Origin: Salminus brasiliensis
Lineage: Eukaryota > Chordata > Actinopteri > Characiformes > Bryconidae
Assembly: GCF_030463535.1 (NCBI RefSeq)
Contig: NC_132881.1
Span: 41,265,973 to 41,329,972, forward strand
Direction of reading: 5' to 3'
Length of the DNA: 64,000 bases
A program made the position numbers and the translations under genes. This document shows, one piece after another, positions 2,482 to 59,028 of the stretch (the first letter of the stretch is position 1; each line of letters starts with the position of its first letter). The notes beneath the pieces are model-generated. The model had not been told where the DNA came from, did not search any database, and worked only from the letters and a program-made list of their open reading frames with translations.

Positions 2482-3331
2482 ATGGAATAATGGGACAAGT
2501 GTCTCCTGAGGGTTTATTCTGTCGTCTACAGGTAGAGGGCGCCAGCACAGAGGCAGAGTCTGAGGTAAGTGGCATAGGTTCAGTGTGTTCACATATTTTC
2601 AGGCACAAACGTGGACAATGTTCAGTTTCAAGCTTCTCCATCTCTCTCGCCCTCTCTTTGTTCTGTCTCTTTTTGTCTCTCAGGCTCTGGCTGATGAGTT
2701 TCTAGAAGGTTCCTTGTCACTTGACTCCTTCCTTGAGCGCTTCCACTCTCTCCGCTCTCTTGCTCACAGGAGACGGGTGTCCATTGAGAAGCTGCAGGAG
2801 ATTATCCGCCAAAAGAGCCAAGGAGTGGGAGATTCTGGCATGACGTCACAGTCTGGCTCCAATCTGGACGCTGGATCGGTATTACCGTGGCAACCGCAGC
2901 AACCCCAGCAACAGCCGCAACAGAAACCCAGCGTGTCTACCAACCCCTCCAACTCTGCCCTGCCATACGCCCCATACCCTGTTTCTGCTCCCACCCAGCC
3001 CTCTTCAGCCTCTGTAGCAGGCCCCTCCAACCCTTCTGCTGCATTCCAACCGTACCCCAACCAGGCTACAGCCTTTACTCCATCCACAGGCTACCCTGCA
3101 CCTCGGCCTGGCTTTGGCCCCTCTACCTGCCCGTACCCCTCTCAACCCGCATTTCCTGCTCCCCAAGGTCCTCCATTTGGCCAGTTTGGCCCTACTAATG
3201 CTCCATACCCCAGTCAATACCCTTATGGCGGTTATAGTTACCCCATGGGTCCTCACATGGCCCCTTCCCAGTCACCTACAGGTAGGCCACTTTATAGGCC
3301 AGGGTTTGGAGTACCACAGCCATACTCCTGA
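2482..3331 (+). CDS. vps37c: VPS37C, ESCRT-I subunit, C-terminal part (last two coding exons)
   Basis: Coding exons are 2482-2564 (enters in phase 1, ends in phase 0, donor gtaagt) and 2684-3331 (acceptor ctctcag, stop TGA at 3329-3331). The first encodes the end of the Mod(r) core, with LLxLLQVEG-like 'FCRLQVEG' and then EAESE. The second opens with ALADEFLEG and LDSFLERFHSLRSLAHRRR, matching the helical hairpin that binds VPS23/TSG101. A Pro/Tyr/Gln-rich tail of about 165 residues follows, typical of VPS37C rather than VPS37A, B or D. Family knowledge: ESCRT-I sorts ubiquitinated cargo at endosomes. The N-terminal exons lie left of the window. A GT at 3281 (after CCTACAG) could be an alternative donor, but the frame stays open to 3331 and vertebrate VPS37C ends in one large exon. 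I see no P(T/S)AP motif in the tail. Confidence 0.9.
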
Positions 3332-11991: not shown

Positions 11992-14900
11992 ATGGAATGC
12001 ATTCTGCTGTTGGCGGTCATACCCGCTCTTTTACTCGCTGGTGAGTAGACTCTTTCTGATATCTGCAAGCGGCCTGTTTTTAACATCACGCCACCAGATT
12101 ATGTAACATTTGATATTGTAGGAGTCACAGAAACACAACCTTACAGAAGAAGGAAAAAAACTTTAAATTAATTTTAATGGAAGTCAATGTAAATATTTTG
12201 GGGCATTTCTATTGGCCCAATTATCATAAAATTGACACAATGTAAAGAACAACTGCCAGATTTACATTATGTCAAAATTTGGGAAACAGCAAGAATTTAC
12301 ATTATAAGGCTTATGCAGGCCAGCTAGATCTGTGCTCCTCAAAAATGAACCTATAAATTCACAAGCCACGATTGAATCCACACAGGGCTGTAGTACCATG
12401 CACCACAGCGGCAGTATTCACTAATTGGTCTTTTTTTCTGAAGTAGGAGAGATTGTTTAGTGGAAGGGTTTTGTTTGACTTTAAGATACTTTACATCTCA
12501 TTGAATCTAGGCAGCCTCAGGTGTTCACAGACAAAGGCCTCAATCTTAAAGGATTATTTTGCTGTTCATCTTACGATAGCTGCTCTTTGCACTTTTAGCA
12601 TAGTGGTTCTACTATGTAGAAGGTTCTGTAGCAATAATATAACCTTTTTAGGGTAATAATTTAAGCAAGAAACCCTTTTATATAAGTGAACGTTGCACAG
12701 TCAGAAAGATGTTGTTCATCAAATCAAAAAACAAAACCTAATCATTGTAGTTCTGCATGACCAACCAAGCCACTTCTGTTGGTGTGCACTCGTAAATATA
12801 AAGGTGTCAACAAGCGGCGTATTTAATTTGTGCAATTGAACAACCTGCGCAGCCAATTTGATGCTGCTTTAAAGACCTACATTTGTAAATGACATGTAAA
12901 AACAGGTTTTGGAGAACCCCCATGTTGGAGAACGTAATGGTTGCATTGCCAATAGTGTGGGTCTATGTGTGAAATGTAAGCGGTAGGCTAATAGAGAGTC
13001 CTGCTTTACTCTATTCCAATGATATATAGTTCTTTATGTAAATTTCATAAACTGTCATATCGGAAGGTCCCACATTATACCATATAAATTCATCTAAATG
13101 CTGCAGAGGACTGGTGTGTTTGGTCAGTGAGCAGTATAATAAAAATACATAATTTACTATTTTCTATTATATATATAATTTTCCAGTCTGGATATTCCAC
13201 TGTGCTTTTTTGCTTTTAATTACTTGCAAATTGTCAGTCATTAGTTACAAATACATTCCCAAACATATGTGTTTGTTTAGTCTATCTTTAACAAAACTTT
13301 TATGCAGATTGGCCTTCTTTCAGATCTTGCGCTCACATCTATACACAAATTGCTGATTCACTGCAGAGTTCAGCCTTTCGCTGAGAGATCTTGGGAATAC
13401 ATTTTGAAGGAGATGGTCACATGATTGGCCAGCCCATAGTTTGTCATCATAAAATTGGTTTTGTGGTATTAAAAATAAACTACATTTAAAAATACATCAT
13501 TGCATAAAATTTAAATAAGAGTGTTGTAAAAAATTGAAATATCATTTATTTTATATTAATAATTAAATAAAATAAGAAAATATCCTCTAATATAATCTTG
13601 TCATAGTTTTATATAGAACCATTGTGTCTTTGAAAGAACCCCTTTTATAAGTGAACGTTACGCAGACATTAAGATGTTGTTTTTTTTATCAAAAAACCTA
13701 ATAATCATGATTCTGCATGACCAACCAAGCCGCTTCTGCTTCTCCTAAATATAAATGTGTCAACAAGAGCATATATAATTGGTATATATAATTATTATAT
13801 AATGTATATAATTGGTGCAATTGAACAACCTGTACAACCAATTTGATGCTGCTTTAAATAACTACATTAGTAAATGATGTGTGTAAAAAAGGTTTTTGGC
13901 ATTTGGAGAACCCCCATGTTGGAGAATGTAACGGTTCCATACTAATTGCAGGTTTATCCTTTTTTCCAATTTGTCATCATTTTGTTCATCACCAGCAGTT
14001 AAAATCTGTTTCTTTCGCATAGTAGATGTTAGCAAAAACTCCACAGTAGATGTTAGCAAATGCTCCAGAGTGACCCATGAAAGTTGCTATGGAGCAGCAC
14101 ATTTATTCAATTCACTGATTGCTTTCATAGAAAGATTCTGAATTTGATTTGTCTGAGATTTTCAGCAGCATCATTTGAAACTGAAAATGAAGTTATATTG
14201 CATTTAGTAATGTTCAATTTCAGTATCACAATTTACATTTAATAGATTATTCACATATCATAATATTTTACCACTTCAGCTTGGCATTAGGCTAGTTTTT
14301 ATATGAACTCGACACTCTTCAAAGGGGTTCTTTAGTAAAGGAAATTGTTCTACAAAGAACCATGTCAATCAAATACGATGAACATCATTTCACCTGTAGA
14401 AGTGACTTGGTTGATCATGCAGCGACAAAATGATTATTATTTTTTTTCCAGAATAACAACAGCATGATGTCTGCACACTCGTAGTATCTCTGCAAAGTTA
14501 ATGATATCATTATAGACCATGAAAGCTCTATAAAACACTTGCTTAAATGTTTATATTTTTATTTTACCTGGTTAAAAGGTTCTTCACTACGGTGGAAAAC
14601 CTCTTATAGGTTTTTGCAGAACTTTTTAAAAGTGCACCAAAAAGGGTTCTACTAATGTAGCCAAGGGCGCTGCCAGGGGATTTGAGCCCCACAACAAACA
14701 AGAAGTCTGCCAAAATACTCAATCATTTTTTGGGGGGGGCACCTGTCAGTCACAGGCCCTTAATATCGCCCTTACTTTACCACCCCCCAATACGGCTCCC
14801 TGATTGTAGCAACTTAAAGAACTTTTGTTCACTATTATTTAGAACCCTGCTGGTTTAGAGCGTGGGCTTTGATCACCCCCCAAAAAAACCCAGGGCTGAG

Positions 14901-17900
14901 AAAATAAATAAATGAAAAAAGACAAAAGCAAAAGAGAAGACGACTGTGCTTAAACGCAGACTGCAGAAAGAGAAGGAGCGCACATGAAGATCTGAACAAA
15001 GCCGCAGATATCACCTTTATCTTTTGTTCTCAGTGCCATGACACAGCTTTACAGAGGCTTGTCATGACGAGATGTAGAGCGTAAGTTCTCTTTCCCACAC
15101 AAGCTCAAATCAAGTGCAATTAATGGCAGGTGACGTTCTGTTATGTTATGTCATCAACATCAAATCTTTTTTAGTGTCCTATTCCAGAATACAGGCTTTT
15201 TATAATAACTTGCCACTGTCGCCGTTGGCTTGATCTCTGGGGGTCTTTGATCCTTCATGTCTTACGTTATTTCTTCTTCCTTTTTTGTCTCTGTCTTTTA
15301 TTAATTACTAATTATGTAAAGCTGCTTTGTGACGACAACAGTTGTAAAAAGCTATACAAATAAATCTGACTTAACTTGACTTGACTATAATAATGTAAAG
15401 TAGAAATGACCATATACAGTTCTGTTCAATGAGGGAAAGGGACCTGAATAGCTTGTTTTATACAAGTGCTTTAGATTGATCCTAGTTGAACACTTACTGT
15501 ATGTGCTGGGCTGGTGGTTAGATATGACTCTGAACTCTCAAATGCATTGTGGTGAGATGTGTATCTTTATAAAATCGTTGCTGCCACGCACAAACCTCAA
15601 ACATCTCACAGATGACAGGAACATTACAGGAGAAGGACAACCTCTTCTTAATGTTCAAAGAAGGCCAATGTAAAAAAAAAACTGTATTTCACACCATTTG
15701 GAGCATTGGTTGATTTATCATGACTTTTTGAAACAATGCACAGAACAACTGCCAGATTCAGATTATGACAAACAGTGAAACACAGCAAAAAATGGAGAGA
15801 CATGTATAGCTCATTGCTATACCAGTGATGTGTGAAGTCATTAATGCTGTATGTGGTGCACAACTCACCTTTCGCCAGATTCAATAACCCATGTATTTCT
15901 GATTTCAGGTCCAACGCCGGCCGTCAACATTACAAATGGAAACATCAGTTTATCTGCTCCGACTAGCCCAAGCATTGTTTGTGAAAACAGGGCCACCTCA
16001 ACGCCCGCCCCTATCAGGCTCCCACCTGTGCTGGCCAGGGTGAAGGTATCCTGGAACAAAAGGAATCCGTGTCAGGGCGAAATATCACTTTCATTTAATT
16101 TCACAACGGTACATTTGTGCCAGAGTCAGGCTTTAAATGAATTTAGCCATGGTCTGTGCGAGGAGAGAAGATGCGGAAGGTTCCTCAAATACGTCAGTAA
16201 TAACAACAATCAGATGCAAGGTCTCTACATCAATGATAACCTGACTGTGACCAATCAAACGTGTCCCCCTGTATTCATCAGCTGTGCATCCAAAGGTGGT
16301 TTACATACAAGTGAAATACATTCTTCTTTCAGTGCTGTGCTTTTTTACAGTGAGCACTAACTCTCCCGGTCTCTTTTACAGACAACAAGGAGCTGTTGGC
16401 CTATAAAGTAGTAACAGGCTTGTTGCTGGTGCTGGTTCTGCTTGTCATCCTCCTTCGGTTTGCATGGCCGGCATACCTGGCCTTCCGCAAGAGATGTGAG
16501 TCACTTTTACACATAATAAATCCATGATCACACTGTAAAAAAAAGCTGTACACATTTCCGGTAAAAATACAGGCAGCTGTGGTTGCCAGAATTTTACAAG
16601 AAAATATGCTGTCACAATGCGTAGGATAGTACAGTGTGCTTTTTGGGCAACCATACATTTTATATTTAGGAATTTCACATTCACTTCTCAACGACTTAAA
16701 GATTCTTAGTTACACCTAATTTTTAGTCTCATTCTTTTATTCATTAATTGACTCATATTAACTGCTAAGCATAGTCCTGTGGTAGCCCAGAATGACTACA
16801 TGATGACGGTGAGTAAAGGGGATGGGGACACGCCCAGTATGCAAGAAATGTTAAGAATAGTTGAGATAAATCCTTATTTCACACTACGGTGTGTTATTCA
16901 GTAACTGCAGAGACATCTAGACAAACTAGTGGGGCTATTTTCTGGTTATAGACATTTGTAATAGCACTTTCAGCCACCTGCGGTCCATAGGCTCTTTATG
17001 TTGAATTTTCATAAAAAAAGCAAAACTGTTGGCTGTTCTACAATTATTATGGTATATGATTTCCCACTTTTTTCTGTAAAACAGTGCAAGATTATTTAAC
17101 ATTCAAAAAATAGAAAAGAGATAAAATGTGAGTGTTTTGGATGATATATGTATTTATAGTATTTCACTGTTACAGAAACTGTATTTAGCCTTTTTTTACT
17201 GTCATGATTTGACATTTTTTCACTTAAACACTTTTCTGTAAACATGACATGACATATAATTGTATTTAAAACGCTAGTGTTGATGTTTACAGATAGGAAA
17301 ATAGCTAAATAAGTCGTAATATAGCTAAGAATAGATTAGAAATAAATAATGTGATATGCTTAAAAAAGTCTTACAGCAAACTGATACAGTTGGACTGAAA
17401 GTGAAGCTATTTGCTTTAAATAAGAGCATTATATAGACTTTTGGTTTAAGTGGCTTTAAACTTAAACTTTAAACTACAGCAGAGGTTTTAAAAACCGTGG
17501 CCTAAAATTTAGAGAAGCAGGTTTGGGACAGTTAAGTTGCCAGTTTGATCCCCAGGACCAGAAGAAAGTGAGGGAACTGTGTTTTCTCCTCATTTGTTTA
17601 TTTAGTTTTTAGTGTCATTTGTACAGTACAGTGAACTCTTCACTTTGCCTATCCCAGCTTAGAAAGCTGAGGTCAGCCATGCTATGGTGTCCCCGGGGCA
17701 GAGAGGGTTAAGAGCCTTGTTCAAGGGCCCAACGGTAGCAGCTTAGCAGGCAACCCACAACCCTGTAAGCAATAACCCAGCATTTTTACCACTGAGGCAC
17801 CACTGCCCCTATTCACACCTCACAGACGTGCCCCAATTGCTCCTCGGTGAGGCTGCTTCCCACTGCTCCGGTGCCCTATTTGCTATTAAGAGTCTGTGTT

Positions 17901-18178
17901 CTCTGCCATGGATGAATGAAATGTGGTTTTCAGATTCGGTGGTTTGGCTGTGCAGTAAATGGCTGTGAAGTGTTTCTTATTCTAAAGTTAAGAGGCAGCA
18001 GGTTATGTGCACATGATTTTGAGCATTTGAGCCGTTGTGATGTGACTTTCTGTGAACATCTCTCTTTCATTTACTGCAGTTTCACAGCAGCAGCAGAATC
18101 GTTGGATCGGCCCGACGCAGAGTCAGAGTGGTGAGTCATTTCTCTCTCCTTTTCATGCTGCAAAAGCATACACACTCA

Positions 18179-18252
<74 letters not shown>

Positions 18253-19401
18253 TACACACGCACACACACACACAAACATACATACACACACGTGCACATT
18301 CTTGCATTCAGATTTAGGAGTGGAGTGAGGGTGCAACTGAACTATTTCTATGTCCTTTTTTAGTGTCCTATCACAGAAGCCAGGGTGGTCATCTAAAGAA
18401 CGATACAGTCAAGAGGCAATCGTATCCTGGTGAGTGTACACACACATACACATACACACACACACATCTGTTCCAAATATATTTGAAACTATTTGAAACT
18501 ATCTATTTTTACACACTTGCTATAGTGCTATATGGCTATATGGCCATGTACCTTACACAATAGTTACTGAATCATTTCTAGTAGTTACTGAATCATGCAT
18601 AATAGTTACTAAATCATAATTGGTTGTAGATACAGGAACATTACAGTAGTAACTGAATCATTTATAGCAATTACTGAATCATTTATAGGAGTTACTCCAT
18701 TATTCATAGCAGTTCCTGCATCATTTATAGTAGTTACTGAATCATTTATAGTAGTTACTGAATCTTTTATAGAGGTTACTGAATCATTTGTTGTAGTTAC
18801 TGAATCATTTATGGCAATTACCGAATAATTTATATGAGTTACTCTATTATTCATAGCAGTTACTGAATCATTTACAGTAGTTACTGAATCACTTATAGCA
18901 GTTACTCCTTTTTTATAGCAGTTACTGAATCACTTATAGCAGTAACTTCATTATTTATAGCAGTTACTGAATCACTTATAGCAGTAACTTCATTATTTAT
19001 AGCAGTTACTGAATCACTTATATCAGTAACTTCATTATTTATAGCAGTTACTGAATCACTTATAGCAGTTACTCCTTTATTTATAGCAGTCACAGGATCC
19101 TTTATAGTAGCTACTGAATCATTTATAGCAGTTACTGAATCATTTACAGTAGTTACTGAATCATTTTAGTAGCTAATTAAAAACAGGTCTAAAGTAAGCC
19201 TGGGGTTTAAGTAGAACCATAGGGGGGAACACACACTCATATGCACACACACACACACACACACACACTTATACATACATCACCACTTTATTGCATTTTG
19301 ATCTTTGTGTGTTGCCAGGTTTGGAGAGGCTCTCAGTAAATCCCAGCAGAGAGCCTTCGTCAAACCGGAACAGTGACTATGACTCGTACAGCTACAATTA
19401 A
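11992..19401 (+). CDS. cd5: CD5 T-cell surface glycoprotein orthologue with a single SRCR-like domain
   Basis: Exons: 11992-12040 (leader MECILLLAVIPALLLA), 15909-16295 (ectodomain), 16382-16495 (transmembrane), 18080-18130, 18364-18429, 19319-19401 (stop TAA). All introns are phase 1 with GT/AG ends, giving 249 aa (284 if the ATG at 10392 is used). The ectodomain has a Ser/Thr/Pro stalk and then one divergent scavenger-receptor cysteine-rich module: PCQGEI, HLCQ, LCEERRCGRFLKY, NQTCPPVFISC, with five N-glycosylation sequons. After the helix (VVTGLLLVLVLLVILL) the tail reads RWIGPT, SYHRS, SYPGLERL and SDYDSYSYN. These line up in order with the CD5 tail motifs RQWIGPT, SFHRN, AYPALEGAL and SDYDL. 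Family knowledge: CD5 tunes antigen-receptor signalling in T and B cells through tail tyrosines. Mammalian CD5 has three SRCR domains; only one is found here. vps37c upstream and tmem132a downstream match the human CD5 neighbourhood. Confidence 0.84.
12178..12300 (+). repeat. Dispersed short repeat, second copy ('agaacaactgccag' family)
   Basis: It shares 'ttctattggcccaatt', 'gtaaagaacaactgccag' and a following 'attatgtcaaaatttgg' with the copies at about 11230 and 15700. It lies in CD5 intron 1 and has no coding potential. Confidence 0.55.
12660..12965 (+). repeat. 300-bp repeat unit A in CD5 intron 1
   Basis: The block runs from 'agaaacccttttatataag' to 'ccccatgttggagaacg'. It is repeated with high identity at about 13635-13935, including 'tctgcatgaccaaccaag' and 'gaacaacctg'. 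No coding potential is seen. Confidence 0.7.
13635..13935 (+). repeat. 300-bp repeat unit B in CD5 intron 1
   Basis: This is the second direct copy of the unit at 12660-12965, carrying a small AT-rich expansion near 13770-13810. A short inverted relative ('gtgacttggttgatcatgc') is visible at about 14395-14425. That fits a dispersed element better than a simple local duplication. Confidence 0.65.
15150..15395 (-). repeat. Fish interspersed repeat ('cacaaagcagctttacat' family)
   Basis: On the minus strand this reads as the dispersed element that starts with 'aagtcaagt', passes 'cacaaagcagctttacata' and continues to 'gaccccca'. A second copy, on the + strand, lies at about 37080-37325. Confidence 0.65.
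15690..15815 (+). repeat. Dispersed short repeat, third copy ('agaacaactgccag' family)
   Basis: It shares 'cacagaacaactgccag' and 'gattatgaca' with the copies near 11230 and 12200, and ends in 'aaaatggagaga'. It lies about 100 bases upstream of the CD5 ectodomain exon. Confidence 0.5.
17640..17810 (+). repeat. SINE-like repeat in CD5 intron
   Basis: The segment contains 'ccccggggcagagagggtt', 'aagggcccaacggtagc' and 'aacccacaaccctgtaa'. The same sequence order occurs at about 33950-34090 in tmem132a. It is a recurrent non-coding element. Confidence 0.6.
18182..18249 (+). repeat. (CA)n microsatellite
   Basis: A near-perfect CA dinucleotide run lies in the CD5 intron just after the 18080-18130 exon, followed by imperfect CA repeats to about 18295. 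Long frames predicted through it are repeat artefacts. Confidence 0.95.
18560..19170 (+). repeat. Minisatellite, unit about 24 bp, in the last CD5 intron
   Basis: About 25 tandem copies have the consensus 'gttactgaatcatttatag' plus a 4-5 base linker (cagt, tagt). Between about 18900 and 19070 a two-unit higher-order period appears, in which 'cacttatagcagtaacttc' alternates with the basic unit. The minus-strand reading gives a repeated SDSVTAINNEVTA-like frame, but this is a by-product of a 24-base period (a multiple of three) and lies inside an intron. Confidence 0.93.
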
Positions 19402-20799
19402 TCACCTCTCTGCCTGTGGGATCACACTGCGGAGAAGCAGTAGGCTATGATTTGTGTATACAATCATAAGAAGGTTTTTTTAAACCTCTCCACATATGAC
19501 CTTTGGCTCTGTGCTGTTGTGTTCAGCGGAAGTGGAGCAGGAAAAAGATGAAGTTAATACAAAACAATCCAAATATCTAAAATATGAAAATTGTGCAAAC
19601 TGACAAGTAACACCTATCGGCAGTGTTAGCGAGGGCGTTACACTCATTCATCTGCTAAATCACAAATCTGCAAAGCAGGGTTAATTCGGTTGATAGATTG
19701 TGAGGACTTCCGATGCAAAGTGATAAACAAGCCTCAGAGAGTGACGTAAACATTGTAGTTTATTTATTTATTTGCTTGTTTGTTTCATAAGAGATTTATG
19801 TCCAACATTTAGTGTTTGGTAAAACCCAATAATAGATATGCTGTTTATCATGATATTTAGGCCTCTAGAAGTTGGAATAGTAGTGGCACTTAAAAAGAAA
19901 AGTCATTTTTGCAAAAATAAATAAATTCATTAATTTAAATATATTTTACATTAAAAAATAAAATAAAATATAAATAAATGAGAAAATACAAATAAAAAAT
20001 GAATAAAATAAATATGATACTGGTATAATTGGCTGCTATCCCAACAAGCTGCATGTTACAGTGTAGTTTTTGCCATTTTTGCAGTTATAAAATATATTTT
20101 TGTTTGTCCTGCAAACCATTTTATCTTTTTTTTTTTAACCATTTTGTATCTCCATTTTTACAGTTTTTACCTTTTTTACATAATGTAAATGTGGCAGTTG
20201 TTCTGCACAAGGTATTAAAATGTCATGATGAATGGACCAATAAAAATACACCAAAATTGCTTGGAGTAAAATAAGAAAAATGGGTAAAACATACACGTAA
20301 AATTGGTATTTTGGAAATACAAATGTTTTGTGTGTCAGCAATAATATACTGGTTGTTGTTGTTATTGTTGATGATGGACTTTCTATAAATGGTCTAAGTC
20401 TACAGTTGTTTAGTGATCTAGAAGTTCTGAAGATACACAATAGAGACAGAAAGGTGTACTTTGCTATAACTGATCACAATAACAAGAACATCATTGTCCT
20501 GCCCTCAACTTAAATGGAAAGACAAGCCTGTCCAGCAGCAGACGAGGTCAGAGATGCTCCTATTAGACAGCCAAACCCTCAGGTTAGATAGCTCAACCTT
20601 TTTACATTTTTAGAAACTTTTTGCTACATGAAGTGTGTCTACGCTGGGTTCTACTGGCCTGATTTAGTGTGAATAATGATACAGGAATACTCGCTTTGTT
20701 ATTCACGCCTTCTGTTCATTGGAATTCACATCCAGTGGTAGTTTTGGATTGAAGTGTTTTCTGTTATTTGTCTTTAAAACCTAAATCTTTGTTAATAAA
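19402..20799 (+). other. Probable CD5 3'UTR
   Basis: The stretch follows the CD5 stop codon and contains no recognisable exon. AT-rich runs at 19910-20010 carry several AATAAA matches. A cleaner AATAAA at 20794-20799 is a possible end. An inverted copy of the 'agaacaactgccag' repeat lies at about 20150-20290. Confidence 0.4.
20794..20799 (+). terminator. Candidate CD5 poly(A) signal AATAAA
   Basis: AATAAA is followed by 'gcttgttgaagaactcc' and T/G-rich sequence. It lies 1.4 kb after the stop. Earlier AATAAA matches around 19915-20010 are alternatives. Confidence 0.3.
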
Positions 20800-21544
20800 G
20801 CTTGTTGAAGAACTCCAGTGTTGGAGCCTGATTGCTGCTGAATGCTTTGGGAGGTGCAGAGTGGGAGGTAAAGTGCAGGTGATGGTGGGAGTTCGGTGGA
20901 GGGGGGGAATTGATGTGAATATGATGTGAATGCGTTGTGAATGCACGGCTCTGCAGCACCGTGGTTTCCTGCCACGTTTGGACTCACTTCCTGTTTGCGT
21001 TATTTCTGTCGTTCACGCTCTTACACTGCCCTAAAAATACTGCAGCGACTCCCTATCAGCTGCTTCCCCCCGCACTCCTACAGGCCTTACTGTTGATACT
21101 TTCTCTGGGAATCGCAAAGCAGATGTTCACCTCAGTTTCATTAAATTATAGTTAATGGGTGTCTTTTGTTTGTTTTTTACTGTTGATGTTGTTTTATTGG
21201 CTGTTTTCTGCTCTTATCTCCCACATTTGTTCTGAATGCAGTGAAAGAGCTTAAAATATAAGGCAGAGTTTGACTAATGGCGCCTCAGATAACATCACAC
21301 ACATGTACCAGTGAGAGATATGCAGAAACACTGCATGGTTAATGATTTTATGTGTGTGTTGAGTGTGTTGTAAATTCTGTAAAGTTTTGTGTGTGTGTGT
21401 ACTTGTTGTGTGCCTCAGTGTATATAGTTTATATTTACTTAATTTATTTAATATACAGTAATAATATATAACTAGACTAATAACTAAACACTAGATCTTG
21501 GTGCTTAATTGAAATGTGGCATTCAATATTCAATCAATATTCAA

Positions 21545-22500: not shown

Positions 22501-23177
22501 ACGTCTCTCAGAAGTGAAGCAACCACAGGTCTAGCGCCTCTGCTGGCTGGTTGCAGGATGATGTGTAGCTCTGCCCATTCCCGTATGTTTGACAAAACGG
22601 CCCATTTTTCATCTCATTATCATCTCCAGTGTCTAATTCCAACAGTTTTTTTTCCTGTTCTAATATTAGCCAAATTTTTATTTTCTCCCAAAAATCAGTT
22701 TTTAAACCCTTCTGCTATATCATAAGAAGGTGGGGTTACACTGCAGAACCTGCATCACACCCTCTCTGTTTATTACATGGAGCTGCTGAGTTGTAATGGA
22801 ACTAACATGAGCTGCACTTATACTGTAGAACCACTGGCATATCTATACATGCTTATTTACAGTAGTGTATGTGTGTGTGTGGCAGACAGAGGTTGGGAGT
22901 GGGTGGTTGGGTAAGTGCAGTGTCGTTCTCATCCTCAGGTCAGAGATAGGGATTAACTCTGTAGTTTGAATGAGGTTCCAGCAGAGAACAATGACAGCTG
23001 ACAACAGATTACATGTGCAGATTAGCACAGCGAGAGAGAGAGAGCAAATTCCTCCATCCCTCCATCATCCGGCTCTGTCAGCCTTCCACTCAATTCACAG
23101 GAATCACACTCTTACATCAGCATAAAACGTGCTCACACTCTCGTATATGATTATGCCTCAGTATTTTCCAAACTGTT

Positions 23178-26438: not shown

Positions 26439-29400
26439 ATGAAGCTGATAATCCTCTGCTGGTCTCTGGTGCTCTGTAAGTCTGAACCATTTTAATCCTG
26501 TCAAATTCTCACCAATATTTCTATCCTGATCTCTAAAGGGCCATATTTTTACGTTTCCTAAAACCCTAGGCTGACAGCTAATCCAAGAAGCATTTTCTTT
26601 ATTTAAACTGTGTAATACTTTCTATTCTTCTTTGAATTATCACAGTACAGAAAAAAATTAATCTGGAGAAATATTAACATGCCTGATCCAGATCCACAAA
26701 TCCAGTGCCAGTATTTTGTTTTTGAAGTACTAAGCTGTAAATTAAGTATACTGCGCAAACTACTCTCCCTACTACCCCACTGGAAGAAACACACAGCTGG
26801 CAACATGATGATATACCTATATCTCTATTGTTAAGGAGAGTCTTACTGTATACATTACCTTGCCAAGGAAATGAACCCCCTTAAAAATCATTAGATTGGT
26901 TTGGATTACAAATGGCACAAAAATGTTCCAGTCAGTGTTTTTATTGCAAAGCAATCAGCCCTTAAAGGAATTCTTCAAACACAGAATGCATGGCAATTAT
27001 ACAAATTAATAAAACTGCTGCTTGCACAAGTATCTAGCTCTTCAGACTAGTGCTTGGTGAAACCACATTTTGCTGCAATAACTTACAAGTCTTGGGGTAC
27101 GTTTCTATCGGCTCTGCACACTGATTGGGCTTTTGTGATTTTCACATTCTTCCTGGGATCACTGTAATACTGAAAGATTACATTTCTCCTAAGCTTTAGT
27201 TTTTAGCAGACTAAAGAATGTTGTCTTGCAGTATCTCCCTGTATCTTGTCCCAATATGTCCGTCATTCAATTTTAACAAGATGCCCATCCCCACTGAGGA
27301 AAGGCCTCCCCACAGCATGATGCTGCCACCAGCATACTTAACTTCTTGTATGATATTTGTTGAGGAATAGGCGGTACTGGGTTTGCATCACACAGCATTT
27401 TTATTGTAATTTCCTATTATTGTAACCTGGTAAAACTGTAATTTCTTTGCATGCTTTGATGTATTTTTTCTTCAAAAAATTTCTTCCCATTCACACCAGA
27501 GCTGTTTATATCATTGACTAATGCACTTTCACTCCAGTCTCAGTCACTGAGCTCTGTAAATCCTTCGAAGTGATTGTTGGCCTCTTTACAGCTTTCCCTC
27601 CCTTCTTGCTTTGATGCAGAGTTTTGAGGGATGGCCTTCTCTAGGCAGTGCCTGGAAGGTGTACTGCAGCTTCTATTTCCTCAAAATTAATCCAACAGAG
27701 TCCTTTCTTTCTCTTGGTTATATTTAGACCTATCTCTACTTTCCTAGAACAGTATTCTGTCTTAATTGTTAAAAGTTTTTCCTCAGATTGAAAGTTTGAC
27801 CAATTGTATTTGAAAATGTGAACTTGTACTGATTTACAGGTATAGGCCAATTGTGAACCAACTGTGTCCTTCTTAGGGCAATATCTTTCATCTGTGTACA
27901 TTTAGAGTATCCACAGCACAAGGGTTGGGCAAACAGCTTTTTCAGTAGTTTTGTCACAGTATGTTTTCTTACATAAAACCATCACCATTAATAACACATT
28001 TTGAGAGTCAGTCCTTTAAAATAAAAACACAAGTTTAAGAGTCATTTGTAATCCAGACTAATCAGATTACTTTGAGGGGAGCTGTATAACATTTAAGAGT
28101 GTTACACAACATAATCTCTATTCTTTCCATTACCTCCATCTCCTTAAACTCAAGCCCAGACCCAGCCTCCACTCTCTCTCTCCCTCCCAGCACGAATCAC
28201 CGTCTCCCCTCCATGGCATTCTCTCCCTCTCTCTCAGGCTGACCTGGGCCTCCTCTTCACCAACTCCAGCCCATTCTCCTTCACACAGTCCCTGCTGCTC
28301 ATGCCTCCTCTAGGAGCTGCCTCCAAGCCGGGCCTGCGTGCTGCATTCGGGCCTTACTCTGTCACTCAGGTATTTCCGTCATTTAAGTAGCTATTACCTC
28401 CAATACACTACAGTATTTACAGTACATATACATTTTCCACTGATCTCTTAAACAGCACAAATATTAAGCCTTTTAAGGTATATTAAGGTATATAAAATAA
28501 TACCAGTTATTTATCCTAACCTCAGTTACAATTATAAATAATTTAATTTCTTGAATCCAATATGTACACTTAACATATGCATGCAACGTGATAGATTCAG
28601 ATGTGTATGCCATTTTAGAATAAATACTATAACTAGACAGAAACTAGTATCCTAAGGTATTTTATTTGAGGATGATGTGTTTAAAATGTAACTTATTTAG
28701 GCAACAACAAAATTTTATTACAGGATATATTATTTAGGCTACTGTAGAGGAATGCTTACTTAAGCGAAGATTTAACTAAAAACTATAATCTCTGCTTCTA
28801 TTCCCTGGTTTACGGTAATGTCATACTGTAGCTTTTAATACTGTCACAGAAACACTGTAACTATTTCCTTGTAATTAATTACCGGATACTGGAGTCTTAG
28901 TGTTGACGTCCTCTCTGTGTCCTCTCAGCATGATGTGCTGTTAGCAAACTGAAGAGATTATAGCCGGATTATCTTTTAGCCATTTGCTTTTCCTTTAGAT
29001 TTGGCTTTCTCAAGTCTTATCTGAAAAAAAGTTTGATAGGCAGCTGAGGAAAGATAGACACCATATTTCTCAGAAGTTGCCCTTTTGTTTTACTGCTTTG
29101 ACTAGGGATAGTAGGGTTTTCACTAGTGGGCTGGTTCATGTACATTTTATGGCCACATAGGCCATAACATTCTGTCAAAATTGTTACATAACAGTTTTGG
29201 GCTTTTGGAATTGGATCGTTTAGGATTGTTTACAGCTCTGTTTAGGTTTGCTGTGATTTACTCTATGTCACTTCCATGTACTGATTGTACGTAACTATGT
29301 CAAGGTCTTCAAATCTAGGGTCCAATTTTATGGGTTAATTTTATTAATTAATATGTGTGATTGCTACTCTGAGTCAAACCGCTTAATCTCATAGTTACTC

Positions 29401-32400
29401 ATTTTCTCCCCTTCAGCTCGTTTCTGAACCCATTGCTCCTCTCTCTGCTCCTCTTGTGGCATATCTCCTTTCCAAAACGGTTGTGCGAGAGCGAGAGGCT
29501 GGTCGAGGGGAGAGGTTAAAGGTCAGGGTGTTGTTCCACATGAGGGGTGACACAAACAGAGGGACGTGTGTGATTCTTCATGCTTTCAAACAGACAGAGG
29601 AGCAGAAAGCATCCTGCATCACTCAGGTACTGCCGAATGTTCAGAATTTAGATCTACATAACTGGTTTCACAGCATTCCAAGACGAACAGTAGACAAGAT
29701 CACATCAGGCATGTGCAGTCATAGCCTTACTATTTATAGAACGGATTACTGTAAGTAAATAGCCTATAGGATTGTTTTCCTGAACATCTTTCTCGTCCTC
29801 ATGTGCAGGAAATTATTAGAAACTGGGCTTGTGTCCAGGGGGCCTCTATAGGGCCCTCTACTGGCATATATGTATAGTGTGAATGTGTGCATTTAGGTGC
29901 TAATCTTTTTTTTCAGCAGAAGGGAACTAAGACCCCGTTTAAATCTGGTCACATGGTTGCAAACAAATACATGGTTTGCAACATGGAATAAAAAATAACC
30001 ACATGTATTTACACTCACACTTTCTGTTGTTATTCTAAATAAAATCATTTTGCTATGTAGTCCATAACCCAGCCACTCATACAGAACTACTAGTTACCTG
30101 TGTTTCTTGTCCTCAAAAGATAGTTGCTGTGTTGAAAATTACATTTTCACACAGTGTGATTAATCGCCTTATACCAGCAGTCAGTGTTTACAATTCTAAT
30201 TAGCTGCTTGCTTTAATAATGACACTTTATTTAAGCTAGCTCACACACATTCCTCTTATGGAGCCCCACTGGTAATATCCCACAACTCATAGTCATAGTC
30301 ACGGCTAAGGATCTTGTTCCCACGATTTACTAAGCCGTTGCCACAACTTTCATTTATGGGGTATGTCACCAGTGGGGCTACATAAACTGTGGAGGAACCT
30401 CTTGAGGTGCTTTAAGGAATGTTCCAGGAATCTTTTTCTTCTGAAAAACTCCTTGAAGGTTCCTTAAAGCACATTAAATACTCCATATATTTTCTAAATA
30501 AAGAACCCCCAAACGTTCCTCAAGGGTCTTATACTTTTAACAGTGTAGGCTACCTACTTAAACTCAGAGGAGAAAAACATGCTAGAAATTGTCCGGATGA
30601 TTCCTGCTAAGTGGTGGCCGTCCAGGAAGTCCTGTTTGGGTGATCAGATTTACATCAGTTTTACATGCCTCTTGGGGGCAGTCACATCTTCTATATGAAA
30701 ATATCATATCCAGTTATAACCCTGAGTCTCAAAACACATGAAATGACCACGTGAAAAGTTGTATTGTGGCATGCTCAGCAATCTTGTGTGGACAGTGGAC
30801 GGCTGGGGCAGCAACATGGATGATTCGGGCGGTACTTCGCTGTGAGGGACATCATGCGTCTCTGACCACCTCCTGACGTGGTTTGTGTGAATGAATGACA
30901 GTGCGACCTTGAGACGCATTGTATCCTGTTCACACCTGTTCTTTGTGCTGGCCCCTTATGATCAGAACACTCAGGGAGCCTATTAATGCTTTGCTTGCTT
31001 TTAAATAACATACAACTATGTACATTAACTCAAAAGTATGTTTTCTGTTCTATATATTTTAAACTACAAATGAACTCTAATTTGAATGTAATAGGTGCTA
31101 TAAAATGTAAAGCTTAAAATAGCCCTAAATCTAACCATAATTTTGACCCTAAACCGAAACATACATTTCACCAAAGTTTGCTCACAATCTGATCATCTAT
31201 ATCGTTAAAACCCCAAGGGTTCATTAGTAAAAACAATGGTTCTGTATAGAACCAAATATCTCTTAAATATCGAAACTGTACTCTTGCTATAGATCATAAG
31301 CAGCTATCTATGCTATTTCTACATCAAATAAAGTGTTAAGTGGCTGCAGTTGCAAAATGTTAAGTACATAACAGAATATATATATACAATAAACACTTTC
31401 TTTGATGTAGAAATAGCATAGATAGCTGTCTTGGTATCTATTCCTCTTCTTTTCTAACCCCTGACCTCTGTACTTATCTCATAGCCTCCTCTTGGACTGT
31501 GTGTGGTCACCATGACGTTTCCCAAGGACTGGTTTGAGCCTGACCAGACAGTTCATCTGCACCAGAGCAGCCAAACCTTCCGGCAGCGCCACCCACACAG
31601 AGTCCGAGCTCATAACCACAGCCGGCGACAGCAAATCTTCTCAGCAGCCCTCAGGGCCAAACCTGGAGCCCTTACTCAAATGGTCCAGCTCTACTACTCT
31701 TTCTTTGGCACTGTGACCAACTTTAAGTCATCGCCACCTAGATGTGTGGAGGACAAAGTGCAGCAGTCGCAGAGAACGCTGTTCTACATTGGACCTGTGA
31801 CTCTTGAGGACAAAGCAATCAAAAGTAACAAGACAAAGCAGGGCTTTTCCTGCATAGACAGCTTTGAAGAAGAGGAGCTGTGGCTGAATTCAGATGTGCT
31901 TATTCGCCATTATAAGGGTCCTGTGCGAGCTGGACGACCAGTTGGAATATCGATAAACCTACGGTCGAATTTTAGTGGTGAATCTGTTATTGTGAGGTAT
32001 GATATACTCTTTACAGTCAAACATTATAACTCTTGGAAAATACACAGTGAACTCTATGCCACTATCTCTTTTGTTTTAGATTTAAAGTGAAGAAAGGGTT
32101 ACTGTCACTGCAAGCTCAACCTGCCATTAACTCTGACCTCTGGACGGTCAAAGTGGAGAGGACATCAGGCTCCAAGCATGAAACAATTTCTGTAATCTCA
32201 CATAGAACTGGTGCTGTTCAGGACACTCATGGGTAAGTTAAAAACAGTGTGACTGAAACGTTGCTGAGAAAGAAATTCTAAATCCATCCATTTTATTATC
32301 TGCTTCTTCCTGGTCAGGGTCGCAGTGGGTCCAGAGCCTACCTGGAATCATTGGTTGTAAGACAGGAATGCCCCTAAATAGCAGTTAAAAAGAACTGCTC

Positions 32401-35400
32401 AGATGTACACTGACTTATTCTCTTCTAGTACTTGATGATGTGTCCAAATATTGAGTGCACATATTTCAACTTGAGTTCATAGTGCCTGTTTTGGCTGTCC
32501 CAAACTGAATCAAAACCCGACTGAAGTCTGGTGATTCTCCTGACCAATCTAAGTTTTTTATCAGGTTCTGCTGAACAAGTCCCCCACAGATTTGGACCTG
32601 AGCACTCTAGACTTTAGTAGTGGGCATAAATAGACAGGAACTCCTGGAAATTTCTACCTGACAGGACTGACCCGTCATTATAGCAATGAGACACATAATC
32701 AAGTATTAGAAAAGAAAGGATGTGACCAAATTTTTCTCTGGGAGCTTATCATCGACAGACGTTTAGCAACAGTTTTGGATGTGTTTAAAGATATTGATCT
32801 CTTTGTTCGAGGTGGAGAACCAGAGAAAGTGACTTGAGCTGCCAACAAGACAATGCCAACAAGATCCTACAGGAGGGCTGGGAAGGGAGGAAATTTTGGG
32901 GATGTCCTGGCAACACAATAACCAGAATTAGACATCACTGAGATCTTGTGGGACTGTGTTGAGAAATATATGGAGAAGAAAACCCTGACCACTCTGGGAG
33001 GAAAGCAGTGGAGAATGTATGGGGTTTATTCTGTTTATTTATATTATTGTAAGAAAATCTTTAAATCTATTTGGATTTATCGTGATTTGGATTAGGATTA
33101 GTTTTACTTGGGGAGGTGGGTAATAATGTAGAGTCCAATCCGAATGTGCCGCCAGTCATTTTTTACGGATTGCACGCTCCCGTATCACAAAAGATTCCGG
33201 CGCCTTTTACTTTCTGTAAAACAAGCTGTAAAATTTACCTCCGATTATATTAATCCCACCAGAATCTACACTTGAGTAAATATTCTGTCATATCCGGGTG
33301 GAAAGGATTTTTTCGCAGCATTTGTCGGGTATAGAGGAGCTCAAGGAGGCATGTAGTTTTGTTGTGAATGGCACAGATACCTCGGGTTGTTCAAGTCTGT
33401 GGCAAACCTTGAGCCTGATGACTCATCAGAGGTTTTATAAAGATAAAGCTGATCATGTTAAAACTCAAAATTTCATCATTGCTATCAGTGGTCACAGAAT
33501 GCTGTTGGCTGGATATTTTTGGTTGGTGAAAACCACATCTTACGCATGTTAGAGGTGACAGCAGTGTTTACATCTAGTAGGCACTCCCATATACAACTAC
33601 ATTACTTCACCTCCCCAGGTAAAACTAATCCCTTCCGAAAAGGGCTTTAGCTGTCTCCTTTTTTGGTGTGTGCTGGTGTTTTCTGATTGCCAGCATACAA
33701 TGCTTTTATTGAAGAGAGCCACAAATGATTAGTTCATTGGTTTGTGACACTGACATGGCTGTTTGCTCTGGAGACAGCATTTTGCAGTTGTATGTTGTAC
33801 AATCTGGGTTAAATGGGTAAAAATTATTCTATCATATTCATCATTAGTGTTGGACACAGCTGGAATTTGGTCTCCGCCTTTAACCCATTCATGCATTAAA
33901 CACACACACACACACACACATACACTATTGATCAGAGACACACCGTGACAGTGAGCCCAAGTGCCCAGAGCAGTGAGTAGTCATCGCTACGGTACCCGGG
34001 GAGCAGAGAGGGTCAAGGGTCTTGCTTAAGGACCCAACAGTAGCATCTTGCCAAGACAGGGTATCAAACCCACAACCCTGTCAATGTTAACCATCATACC
34101 CATTCATTTACCATCATATCTCTCCTATATTTCTCTCCTTCAGTTCTGCAGCTCTGAGGCAGATGGTCTGTCTCTCAGTAGAAGGTTTACGAAGGAGCTT
34201 TGGAGTCGCCATGACAGTTGCAGTCAGCTGGTGGGTGGAGTTCTCCATGCGCACTAGCTTGGTGTCACCACACGGGGCAGTGATGAGCTTCCTGTCTTTC
34301 ACAGATCGAGAGATAGTGGGCATCGCCCCCATCACAGAGGTGAGTCACCACAGTTTGATGCTGATGCAAATGGGCCAGTGCTTATTTCCTTAAAGCCTGA
34401 ATTAGGCTGAAACTGAAATCAGGCCACAAGTGAGACAGTAGCACAGATGCCCTCCAGAAATAACAAGAATAGAGAAACTATAATTGCTGCACATTTTAGA
34501 GTGCGCTTTTGTAGCACTTTAACATCACTGTTTCAGCAGACAAACCTTTCCAAGTGCAGTGATTCCTGATTAGGCTTTCAGTGGACTGGTGAAATAAGAT
34601 CATTACACTTTACTAAAGCTCACACTAATTTTTGCTTATGAAAGACTGGAAAGGTCTCACTCTTTATTTTTCTTAACAGAGCAACACGATCATCAACACG
34701 GCCATCTTGACGAGCCAACCAGTTTCCCTCCCTGTCATTGTACTGGGGGTGGGGCATGATGGGAAAGTATCAGATATTACTGCAGCAGTAAAGTGCAGAT
34801 CAACCAACGAAGATATTGTCAAGGTAGTCAATCTTTTGATGATGAGTGGATCCACTCAGATTCATTGTAAACTGCTGATGATATAAAGGCATGGCAGGTC
34901 CTCGTGATCTCATGTATTATTAGTCCTTTTCCTGATTAGAATGTTGGTGCTTGTTGGGTAGTACCCAGTGTACTCAGTGTCAGGGTGTGAAATACCCTAT
35001 GAGGGTCCAATTATTTTAGAATTGAACTTTAGTAGATTAAAACACGAGTCGAGACAAAACACGAGACCACACAACAACCCCAGTTATGATTGGAAAGCTG
35101 ATGTTTGGCTGAGTGCCTCGGTTAGCTGCAACGCCACCTAGTGGCAGAGCAGTGCTACAGCTTTAGTTACAGGAATGTGCCATTTTGAGGGTGAAGCAAG
35201 CTAAAATAAAACACTATAACCAATACATGTTTTGTATTCATATCTGAGAGTCTTTTTAATGGATGAATAGATAAATATAATGTAATAACATATTCTTATA
35301 TTCTAATCTAAGTAAATATTTAGGCATCCCCAAGAGTTTTGAGTCAATTTTGAGGCTTTCGGGAGGCCCTAAGGGTTAATCAGGGCAGTCCTGGACCGGC

Positions 35401-38400
35401 CCCTCAGGAACCGTATTTAGCTAGATAGCTAGATGGATGCATGGAGAGATAGATATCAGATAAAAAAGAAAACAAAATAAAAACCTTATATATTACCATA
35501 TATATTACTTACTTATATTCAGATTTATAAATTAGATCAAATGCACATGTATTTTTGTTTATTTTTTATTTTTTCTGACAGGTGTCAAATGATTGTACGG
35601 CCCTTTTTGTGGATGGGAGTGAGTCTGGGATGGGAAGTACCTGTGTGGAAGTGGAATTTTCCCTGGGTACGCTCAGAGGCTCTTTATGCATGGCTGTATG
35701 GGCTCCTATGGTTCCTCTCCGCATCTCCCTCTCTGATTCTGTCCTGAGTCCCATCAGTGGCTGGAGCTACTACACAGAGAGCGGGTACACTCTACTCTTT
35801 GGCCTTTTACAAAACAATGACTCTTTCTTGTTCTGTTGGACGAAAATTCACCAGTGAATTCAGAGTGAAAAAGACTCTGTTGACAGCATTTAAATGCTTG
35901 GACTAAACAGAATAAGCAGAATATTCTTGGCCTTGACTTTTTCATTTTTTTTTCCCACCTCCACCCCCCACTCTCAGAGGACCATTAACACACTGTTAGA
36001 CATACAGCGGTTTACGTAATTTAGAATGAGTTCAATGAGGTTATCCAAAAATCAAGGCCATCCTTTTCAAATTTCATCAGTGACTTCCATCTAGTTGTGA
36101 CTGTGGAAATGAGGGAATTTGTGGTATTTAAAAATCATCTCTCTGCATTTTTTCTCTGTCTGACTGTTTTCCTCTCTTCCATCTCTCCTCTTACAGATGC
36201 AGCCCAGTCTACCAGCGGTCCACCATTCAGATCCTTGCACAATTTAGTGCTCAACCAGTGGGTCCAGGTGGTCAGCCAACCTACATGCTTGGATCGCCTG
36301 ATTGGTTTGTAGATGTAACAAACTTGGTCCGTGATTGGCTGAGGATTGACAACCCACGTGTTGCGGCTCTTGATAATCAAAACCACCTAATCGGATTGGA
36401 GCCTGGTTTAACTTCTCTGCATGTTAGTATCTGAACATCCTCTCAGAAATGTGCTGCACTGAAATCCATACCAGTACTTTGCAAAAGCACCTAAGAATGC
36501 TATATTTAGAAAGCCATTTTACTGCATAGTAGGTGTTTATTTACGCTATACTTGATCCATTCACAAGGGAAATTTACAAAATATTAAACAGGTTAGTTGG
36601 CTGTTATTTGAACCCACAGCCTTCCATTTGATGGCTACCATTAATACAATAGTACTAAACATTTTAAGTTGGAGTAAGTTTCCACTAGCTCTGCTCACTG
36701 TTGGTTGGATGATGTTTGTGGACAGCAATTTCCAAATAGTGCCACAGATTGTGGACTGGTTTGAGATCTGGACTCTGGACGCTTCTCCAAAGCTTTAGAT
36801 TTTTAGCAGACTGAAGCAGGTTGTCCTAAAGGATCTCTCTGTATTTTGGACCATCCCCATAACATAATGCTGTCACTCCATATTTCACTCTTGAGCTACT
36901 GCACTCCCAGGAGGACTAAAACTGTGTATGCTTGTGTGAGGAGCATTAGACGTCCCTCATGTGGTCATGTTTAGGTTTCTAATAAAGTGGTAGCAAAAAT
37001 TTTAAATGCCTTAAGACGACTAAACTTGTCCTGTTAATGTTTAAACACCATAAGATGTAAAATATCATTTCTGTCAGGTGTCAAGTCAAGTCAAATTTAT
37101 TTGTTTAGCTTTTTACAACTGTTGTCGTCACAAAGCAGCTTTACATAATTAGTCATTCGTAAAAGACAGAAACAAAAAAGAAGTAACGTAAGACATAAAG
37201 GATCAAAGACCCCCAGTGAGCAGCCAACGGCGACAGTGGCAAGGAAAAACTCCCTCAGAGCTGGAGGAAGAAAAACTGGGAGGAACCAAGACTCACAAGG
37301 GGGACCCATCCTCCTCTGGCCAGACTATTTAAACATTAATGATAAAAATGACCAAACCAGATACAACAGATAGTTAATAGTGGTGATATTAATAGTGGCA
37401 GATAGTTACGAGTCCATTTAGGTTTTAACATGGTCATTAAACAGGTAGCAGTGGTAGGAGGGTGTGCCGCTGGTCTGGTGTGGGTGGTGGTGGGTGGGGG
37501 CCTGATGGTCGGACTGGTAGGTGGCAGGTGGTCTGATGCAGATGTGGATATGCATGGACCGGGCGGCGTTCCATGCATATAGGGAGCTAAATGGCTGTGT
37601 GCGGATTGTTCAGTAATTTTCCTTTTATTCTTCTTTCTTCAGGTGATATCAAGTCAGTGGGATGGTGTGCTTGGCAGTGTTGATGTCTTCGTGACGTCTG
37701 AACCAGTGGACCCCGGTGACCTCTCTGTGCAGTTAGTAGGTGGGCTTGGTCTGTCAATTAATCCGAACCCTTCTCATCCCTCTGTCGTCACAGCGACAGT
37801 GACCTCGCACAACACGCTCTATAACCATGGGCAGGTAAGCAATCCTGATAGCATCATAACTGTACTACATCTTTCCAGCAGTTCCTCTCTATTCTTGATG
37901 ATGTTTTGGCCCTTGTTTCTCAGGAAGCGTCTGTGAGTGTCTGGCTACAGTTTGCTGATGACACAGCCATACTGGCCTCTGCTTTCAGCGGTGTCCCTTT
38001 CTCCCTGCGCCTGTCCTCATTGGCTGAATCAGTGGTTGTTGTGACACCTTCTCCATCACAGCGCATCCTAGCACAAGGAGATGGTGGAGGGCCTCTTGTG
38101 AAAGCGGAGCTTCTGGTCTCCACATGTGAGCTTGTGTCTAACCGCATTGAGATGGATGGGGACAGGGAGGGAGGTGGGACTCGGAGACTGGCTAAAGGCT
38201 CTGGATGGATAAGAGTGAATTTGGATGCAGACATCTGGCCTCTAGGGAGCGAAGTTGAGGACTTTGAGATGATCGATGCATCTGACATGCTTGTGGAGTC
38301 AGACAAGGAAGTGTATGGTAATTCTGAGGAAGAGCAAAGAACACTAAACTCCACTCAAGTCTATGATGTCTATGCTGGGAACGGGGTGATCGACATGGCC

Positions 38401-38751
38401 AGGAATGACTTGGAGAGGGCGGTATTGACACCCAACCACGAGGAAAGTGCGGTTTATTTTTCTCCTGGGGTGGAGAAGGAAAGTACGGAAGGAAAAACTA
38501 CCAGTCGAGAGTTGGAAGTAGGAGTTGGAGCTGTTCTCTCTCTTCTGTGTCTCTCCTCCCTCCTGTTTCTCGTCAACTGCCTGCCATGTGCACTGAGGGA
38601 TCATAAGAGACAAATGGAACAGGAGATAGATGGAGAGGAGGACTGTACTGAGGAACATGAAGAGCAAGAAAAGACTTTACAGAGAAGACAGGAGATGGTA
38701 ATGTTTGATGATGAGAACGGAGAGATTAACTGTGTCAAATCACAGGTTTGA
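26439..38751 (+). CDS. tmem132a: TMEM132A, single-pass membrane protein, complete
   Basis: Exons: 26439-26475, 28191-28369, 29417-29626, 31485-31996, 32080-32232, 34144-34339, 34680-34823, 35582-35784, 36197-36422, 37643-37834, 37924-38751. All junctions are GT/AG and the phases agree, giving 959 aa; human TMEM132A is slightly longer. Order: signal peptide MKLIILCWSLVL, TMEM132 N-terminal domain (NSSPFSFTQSLLL, RAAFGPYSVTQ), then KVRVLFHMRGD, CVVTMTFPKDWF, RFKVKKGL, DREIVGIAPI, SNDCTALFV, CSPVYQRSTIQ, GSPDWFVDVTNLV, and a helix at about 38520-38590 (VGAVLSLLCLSSLLFLV). Each has a counterpart in vertebrate TMEM132A. The in-frame ATG at 26394 would add 15 residues. Family knowledge: TMEM132 proteins have an adhesion-like ectodomain; TMEM132A has been linked to Wnt/integrin biology. 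The tail is only about 55 residues, acidic, and lacks the family's WVWLGTD-type region. Synteny with vps37c and CD5 supports paralogue A. Confidence 0.94.
26876..28079 (+). mobile_element. 1.2-kb degenerate DNA transposon with inverted ends in tmem132a intron 1
   Basis: The left end ('cccccttaaaaatcattag', then 'tttggattacaaatgg') is the inverse of the right end ('catttgtaatccaga', 'agattactttgagggg'), about 38 bases per arm with mismatches. Inside are blocks seen in many fish transposon remnants, such as 'ccccacagcatgatgctgcc' and 'gggatggccttctctaggca'. No intact transposase is visible. Confidence 0.72.
30390..30550 (+). repeat. Imperfect inverted repeat of the AAGGTTC/GAACCTT type
   Basis: The left arm 'gaggaacctcttgaggtgct' and the right part 'ttccttaaagcac...gttcctcaaggg' are inverted relatives. 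Short GGTTCTT/AAGAACC-bearing pieces also occur at about 6385, 12605, 14330, 14575, 26135-26320 and 31225. They look like a dispersed miniature element. Confidence 0.45.
31302..31427. repeat. Inverted repeat, 36-bp arms, 1 mismatch, 54-bp loop
   Basis: Arm 31302-31337 ('agctatctatgctatttcta' onward) is the reverse complement of 31392-31427 at 35 of 36 positions. It lies in tmem132a intron 3, 58 bases before the acceptor of exon 4. The AT-rich loop carries a TATATATA run. Confidence 0.85.
33095..33631 (+). mobile_element. 537-bp MITE with about 36-bp terminal inverted repeats
   Basis: The left end 'ggattagttttacttgggg' plus 'aggtgggtaataatgtag' matches the inverse of the right end 'ctacattacttcacctcccc' plus 'aggtaaaactaatcc', with a few mismatches. 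It has no transposase and lies between tmem132a exons 5 and 6. The inner sequence contains 'attccggcgcctttta' and shows no homology I can name. Confidence 0.8.
33950..34095 (+). repeat. SINE-like repeat in tmem132a intron 5
   Basis: It carries 'acccggggagcagagaggg', 'aaggacccaacagtagca' and 'aacccacaaccctgtcaa', the same order as at 17640-17810. It ends about 50 bases before tmem132a exon 6. Confidence 0.6.
36660..36965 (+). repeat. Diverged DNA-transposon fragment in tmem132a intron 9
   Basis: It contains 'gctttagatttttagcagac' and 'cataatgctgtcactcc', related to parts of the 26876-28079 element. No ends are recognisable. Confidence 0.45.
37080..37325 (+). repeat. Fish interspersed repeat, second copy ('cacaaagcagctttacat' family)
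   Basis: The order is 'gtcaagtcaaatttatttg', 'cacaaagcagctttacata', 'ggaaaaactccctcagagc' and 'gaggaaccaagactcaca'. This is the familiar layout of a very common fish repeat, the same family as 15150-15395 in the opposite orientation. Confidence 0.7.
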
Positions 38752-58712: not shown

Positions 58713-59028
58713 CAATGAAAATAATGCACTATACACAACACAACGGTATAAATTCAGTATAAATTACATACACACAAAATGATCATTTTTCGTCAGTGAC
58801 TTGTTCAAGTAAATAAACACTGGTAGAAATTGTAGACTTGGGAAGCAGGTTTTGCTGAAGACCCTGAAAAGGCAAGGACAGAAACTGTGTAGGACTGCGG
58901 AAGAAAGAGAATTAAAATTGAAATTAGTACCCGAGAAGATCTTTTGATGAGAGTGGGAACCAGCAAACACTTTTGGTTATCATTTCTAATGACCAACAAT
59001 ACATAACTGAGTCATATAAACATCTCCT

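Follow-up and report, generated by a model that had tools for sequence, protein, structure and literature searches.

CD5 is described in passages of PMC6292949 as having three scavenger receptor cysteine-rich (SRCR) domains and, in the human protein, four cytoplasmic tail tyrosines (Y378, Y429, Y441 and Y463), the distal three frequently being found phosphorylated. According to the same passages, T-cell receptor stimulation triggers phosphorylation of mammalian CD5 independently of ligand binding, the protein relocates to the synapse, its partners include CBL, CBLB and possibly CSK, its C-terminal serines bind casein kinase 2, and the physiological relevance of reported CD5 ligands is debated. 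One title in the reference list of PMC6292949 credits the CD5 pseudo-immunoreceptor tyrosine-based activation motif (pseudo-ITAM) with the action of CD5 on B-cell receptor signalling. Among fishes, a passage of PMC8818700 points to rainbow trout CD5 (Abos et al. 2018, J Immunol), titled the first teleost CD5, and to an existing anti-trout CD5 antibody; a literature search that did not extend to the trout CD5 description itself found no domain count for teleost CD5. Here we analyze a 64,000-nucleotide stretch of the Salminus brasiliensis genome (contig NC_132881.1, forward strand, positions 41,265,973 to 41,329,972; hereafter the window) and describe a predicted gene that is very probably an orthologue of CD5 in which a single SRCR domain is encoded.

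The predicted CD5-like gene comprises six exons on the plus strand with AG/GT at every internal edge and phase 1 at all internal joins, and translation of the exon chain yields a 249-amino-acid product without an internal stop (Table 1). Its putative signal peptide spans residues 1–16, with a 19-residue hydrophobic segment starting at residue 4 (Kyte–Doolittle mean 2.18), and is followed by an N-terminal stretch in which 18 of 44 residues (17–60) are serine, threonine or proline. The hydropathy maximum of the product (2.89) falls at residues 155–173, encoded by exon 3. N-glycosylation sequons occur five times in the ectodomain (N23, N28, N80, N127 and N132) and once in the tail (N213), and seven AATAAA motifs are found in 19402–21200, the last at 20794. 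The six exons, their boundaries and phase-1 joins, the 249-residue product and the five ectodomain glycosylation sites of the original prediction were all reproduced.

Alignment with human CD5 identifies a CD5-type cytoplasmic tail in which RWIGPT, SYPGLERL and SDYD stand in the human CD5 order, as originally proposed; WIGPT and YPxLE are both parts of the human tail. Equivalents of Y378, Y441 and Y463 align and Y429 has none, so the full set of four human tyrosines is not present, and three tyrosines are extra relative to human CD5, one in SYHRS and two at the C-terminal end. The terminal NSDYD keeps one SDY and lacks the first SD of the human SDSDY. A scan of introns 3–5 for a skipped tail exon with an acidic-Y (Y429-like) motif, requiring phase 1, a length of 24–150 nt and a pyrimidine-rich acceptor, returned no candidates. 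Intron 5 also contains a minisatellite at 18562–19166, in which the 21-base unit AGTTACTGAATCATTTATAGC is repeated about 29 times.

The cysteines of exon 2 provide the second line of evidence. They follow C-15-C-12-C-4-C(G), a gap of 29, and C-6-C, such that six of the eight usual SRCR cysteines are present at canonical spacing and C5 and C6 are taken to be the absent two; the expectation that few of the usual cysteines would remain is thereby contradicted. We compared this arrangement with six human SRCR domains of 94–113 residues, domains 1–3 (D1–D3) of CD5 and of CD6, the latter three verified against PDB 5a2e. Five of these human domains have 15, 12–20 and 4 as their first three gaps; CD5 D2, with six cysteines, departs from this. 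The last cysteine gap is 6 in human CD5 D1 and D3 versus 9–10 in all three CD6 domains, and the C7–C8 stretch CPPVFISC aligns with CKKVFVTC of human CD5 D3 at the same spacing with VF in common, giving this membrane-proximal domain a CD5-type, D3 character. None of 200000 shuffles of the exon 2 residues reproduced C-x15-C-x12-C-x4-CG exactly, 720 gave a looser pattern, and C-x15-C-x10-22-C-x4-CG is present in one of 2145 frames of the window. Group B SRCR domains are defined by placement on one exon and by eight cysteines with standard spacing; the domain here lies on a single exon and carries six of the eight, with gaps of 15-12-4 and 6. SRCR disulfides pair C1–C4, C2–C7 and C3–C8, and the six retained cysteines could therefore form all three bonds. 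A further cysteine in the N-terminal stretch, C41, is unpaired by cysteine count and might, at a guess, join two chains.

Searches for additional SRCR exons in intron 1 (3868 bp) agreed with the original prediction that none is present. The intron has no stop-free stretch of at least 75 codons wholly inside it on the plus strand, no Pfam family matched in any of the six frames at an expect value (E) up to 10, and no frame contains C-x15-C-x10-22-C-x4-CG. Matches by tblastn within the intron (CD5 D1 at 13241, E 3.3; CD6 D1 at 14732, E 6.2; CD6 D3 at 14504-14352, E 2.1) were set aside as chance or low complexity. Across 3.3–20 kb, moderate splice rules returned five phase-1 open exons with at least four cysteines, all of them forms of exon 2, and the lone candidate obtained without splice scoring in 3.3–15.9 kb (3339-3659) was rejected as low-complexity. 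The C-x4-CG motif occurs in four window frames of at least 50 amino acids, namely exon 2 and frames at 57.1 kb plus, 22.1 kb minus and 2.8 kb minus, the last three not SRCR-like by eye, and outside exon 2 neither the SRCR profile nor the longer cysteine pattern picked out any frame of the window as convincingly SRCR. A decayed SRCR relic could escape detection, since intact exon 2 itself scores only 12.8 bits. This genomic sequence thus contains one SRCR exon rather than the three of CD5. Together, the tail alignment, cysteine spacing, domain alignment and intron scans support the proposed one-domain CD5 orthologue; the case is good both for the orthology and for there being a single SRCR exon in the genomic sequence examined. 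Separately, intron 1 contains two repeats about 1 kb apart that are 71% alike (12667-12946 and 13634-13940) and a 172-base segment (15209-15380) repeated inverted at 37080-37243 with 89% likeness, all probably mobile-element remains.

Several observations weigh against this identification. A Pfam search of the exon 2 product at E up to 10 gave no SRCR (PF00530) match, and the best match, Phage_lysozyme (E 0.0089 and 0.0058), lay below cut-off and was dismissed as chance. At E up to 10, phmmer against the PDB listed CD163, whose chains make up seven of the nine sequences listed, and neither CD5 nor CD6; the best single stretch among the alignments shown has an i-Evalue of 2.6. When the six human domains were compared with the window by tblastn, exon 2 was reached with CD6 D3 (E 0.054) and CD5 D2 (E 0.32), human CD5 D3 did not reach it within the E limit of 10, and among many other weak matches some had lower or similar E (CD6 D1 at 37.5 kb in a Pro/Thr-rich stretch, E 0.009; CD5 D1 at 34 kb, E 0.05; CD6 D2 at 49.6 kb, E 0.057), all of which we take as chance or low complexity. 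Profile alignment with hhalign returned a probability of 9.5% and a score of 20.9, where 100 shuffles reached at most 19.2; the exon 2 domain keeps seven of the nine columns invariant in the human domains (by eye), and single-sequence AlphaFold2 models of 128 and 101 residues are of low confidence (mean predicted local distance difference test scores of 32.3 and 36.5). Y429 and Y441 make up the CD5 pseudo-ITAM, and its Y429 half is absent from the tail. The gene model itself is known here from genomic sequence alone.

Control searches place the profile results in context. With a PF00530 cut-off of 26.1 bits, human CD5 D1 passes at 33.4 bits, and D3 (25.9 bits) and D2 (21.6 bits) miss the cut-off yet are listed. 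The gene had been expected to be easy to miss by similarity search, an expectation upheld by the missing Pfam SRCR match, the missing CD5 D3 tblastn match and the sub-threshold score of human D3 itself, and a warning follows that standard SRCR profiles miss genes such as a one-domain CD5. When viral contigs were scanned with the exon 2 protein, no relative turned up.

Alternative identities account for parts of these data. A CD6-type or other SRCR receptor, or an undivided CD5/CD6 ancestor, would fit the equal raw scores of the exon 2 domain against CD6 D3 and CD5 D3 (52 each), the tblastn match of exon 2 with CD6 D3 and not CD5 D3, and the lack of a detected CD6 between the CD5-like gene and TMEM132. 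We rank these readings lower, as very unlikely, because of the tail alignment and the cysteine spacing; neither a CD6-type tail nor the CD6 C7–C8 gap of 9–10 is found here. It is extremely unlikely that the gene model describes a pseudogene or that open stretches have been strung together by chance: the exon chain was built from genomic DNA and includes the odd cysteine C41 outside the SRCR core, but every exon is open, the splice sites are canonical and in phase, and the tail is conserved with human. We also consider it quite unlikely that a three-domain receptor is normal in the species and that two SRCR exons are missing through misassembly or a deletion in this individual. Assemblies can collapse at repeats such as the 71%-alike pair in intron 1, but the window contains no N or other ambiguous base, the junction of the leader and SRCR exons is in phase 1 and has good splice sites, and intron 1 yielded no trace of a further SRCR exon, with the caveat that a decayed one might go unnoticed.

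A separate matter is the direction of change, where the alternative does not compete with identification as a one-SRCR CD5 orthologue. The original prediction offered loss in fish or gain in mammals; a single genome cannot decide direction, and loss is favored. We infer that two SRCR domains were probably lost on this lineage, because the remaining domain has CD5 D3 character, human CD5 and CD6 both have three domains, and a figure legend in PMC5906529 describes an alignment of CD6 SRCR domains 1–3 across mammals, alligator and two fishes, which suggests a three-domain ancestor. That the single-domain form is ancestral and mammalian CD5 gained two domains appears unlikely, as the C7-x6-C8 stretch with VF matches CD5 D3 and the three-domain state of human CD5 and CD6, together with the same fish and alligator CD6 alignment, points to an ancestor with all three.

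The surrounding genes partly match those of human CD5, as had been proposed, with a VPS37-family gene upstream and a TMEM132-family gene downstream (Table 1). The human gene order is TMEM132A, SLC15A3, CD6, CD5, VPS37C; a Pfam scan of both strands of 19.4–29.4 kb, between the CD5-like gene and TMEM132, gave no match to SLC15A3 or CD6, in contrast to the human arrangement. The upstream frame matches PF07200 with E 1.3e-5 and 25.7 bits, below the 30.1 cut-off, and VPS37B in the PDB with E 2.1e-10; VPS37C is preferred over VPS37B because of synteny with human, which likewise supplies the letter A in TMEM132A. In a Pfam scan of the plus strand of 28.85–38.8 kb, the fourth, fifth and sixth TMEM132 domains exceed the cut-off, and the third and the C-terminal domain fall below it; a separate match to TMEM132_N (E 0.062) also lies below cut-off. 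Elsewhere on the minus strand, a 145-amino-acid open frame at 22070-22507 resembles the end of a reverse transcriptase of the long interspersed nuclear element type, and two frames of C2H2 zinc-finger repeats with similar layout by eye lie at 42364-43302 and 48932-50047. The minus-strand region 54010-63990 encodes an IRS-type phosphotyrosine-binding domain split between frames, each of its two parts exceeding the Pfam cut-off, and a frame rich in tyrosine motifs at 59029-59814, a combination we take to be DOK-like.

Table 1. Features of the CD5-like gene and its neighbors, in window coordinates
Feature	Position	Strand	Evidence
Open frame with end of Mod(r)/VPS37 family gene, probably VPS37C	2564..3331	+	Pfam, PDB match
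Exon 1, start codon and putative signal peptide, MECILLLAVIPALLLA	11992..12040	+	Translation, GT donor, phase 1
Intron 1, 3868 bp, without second or third intact SRCR exon	12041..15908	+	Open reading frame, Pfam and cysteine-pattern scans
Exon 2, Ser/Thr/Pro-rich N-terminal stretch, then one divergent SRCR domain	15909..16295	+	
Exon 3, stalk, transmembrane helix and basic juxtamembrane segment	16382..16495	+	Splice sites, hydropathy
Exon 4, juxtamembrane tail with RWIGPT	18080..18130	+	Translation, aligned to human CD5
Exon 5, tail from SYHRSQ to QSYP	18364..18429	+	Translation, human CD5 alignment
Exon 6, tail end GLERL to NSDYDSYSYN and stop	19319..19401	+	Aligned with human CD5 SDSDY end (PMC6376265)
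TMEM132 family gene, probably TMEM132A	28256..38751	+	Pfam

In the predicted architecture, a signal peptide and a glycosylated Ser/Thr/Pro-rich stretch precede a lone SRCR domain next to the membrane, the counterpart of CD5 domain 3; a transmembrane helix and a tail of CD5 type follow. CD5 is characteristically expressed by T cells and a subset of B cells. By analogy with mammalian CD5, which guides our view of both expression and the whole signalling mechanism, the one-domain protein would most likely be located on lymphocytes and damp antigen-receptor signalling through its tail. Src-family kinases would phosphorylate the tail tyrosines and so recruit negative regulators of the CBL/CSK kind, the serine-acidic-tyrosine end would engage casein kinase 2 or ezrin-radixin-moesin proteins, and ligand binding by domains 1 and 2 would form no part of its work. 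With most of the tail kept and one outer domain, the protein is best read as a putative tail-driven brake. Work by Bhandoola in 2002 is said to have found that, in the mouse, thymic inhibition by CD5 is independent of the ectodomain. Passages of PMC6376265 report that phosphorylated SDSDY peptides bind the radixin FERM domain and that SDSDY deletion in mice lowered autoimmune disease, much like CD5 deficiency.

More tentatively, this lineage may possess a naturally minimal CD5, one that has shed the two outer SRCR domains and half of the pseudo-ITAM and retains WIGPT-SxHR, YPxLE and the SDY end. If so, the core ancient function of CD5 would require neither outer-domain ligands nor the pseudo-ITAM, and the WIGPT-SxHR juxtamembrane block would be a main functional element. 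A natural one-SRCR CD5 with a kept tail would provide an existing system in which to test function independent of ligands and could help to pinpoint the working part of CD5, and comparison with mammalian tails separates old elements (WIGPT-SxHR, YPxLE, SDY) from the part absent here (Y429).

Among known receptors, CD163/M130 and other group B receptors share the SRCR family with the Salminus protein and differ in having many tandem SRCR domains and no CD5-type tail. CD6 has three SRCR domains in human (PDB 5a2e) and, according to passages of PMC6376265, shares the SDSDY tail motif with CD5. Mammalian CD5 differs in its three SRCR domains versus one here and in its SDSDY versus a single SDY; the protein described here also lacks two of the eight SRCR cysteines and an equivalent of Y429 and has three additional tyrosines, two at the C-terminal end and the third in SYHRS. 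We file the gene as a CD5 orthologue with variant architecture, not as a standard CD5, because three SRCR domains may or may not define CD5 across vertebrates. In common with human CD5, it has a predicted signal peptide, a membrane-proximal SRCR domain, a transmembrane helix, WIGPT, YPxLE and an SDY-type end, set between neighbors of the VPS37 and TMEM132 families.

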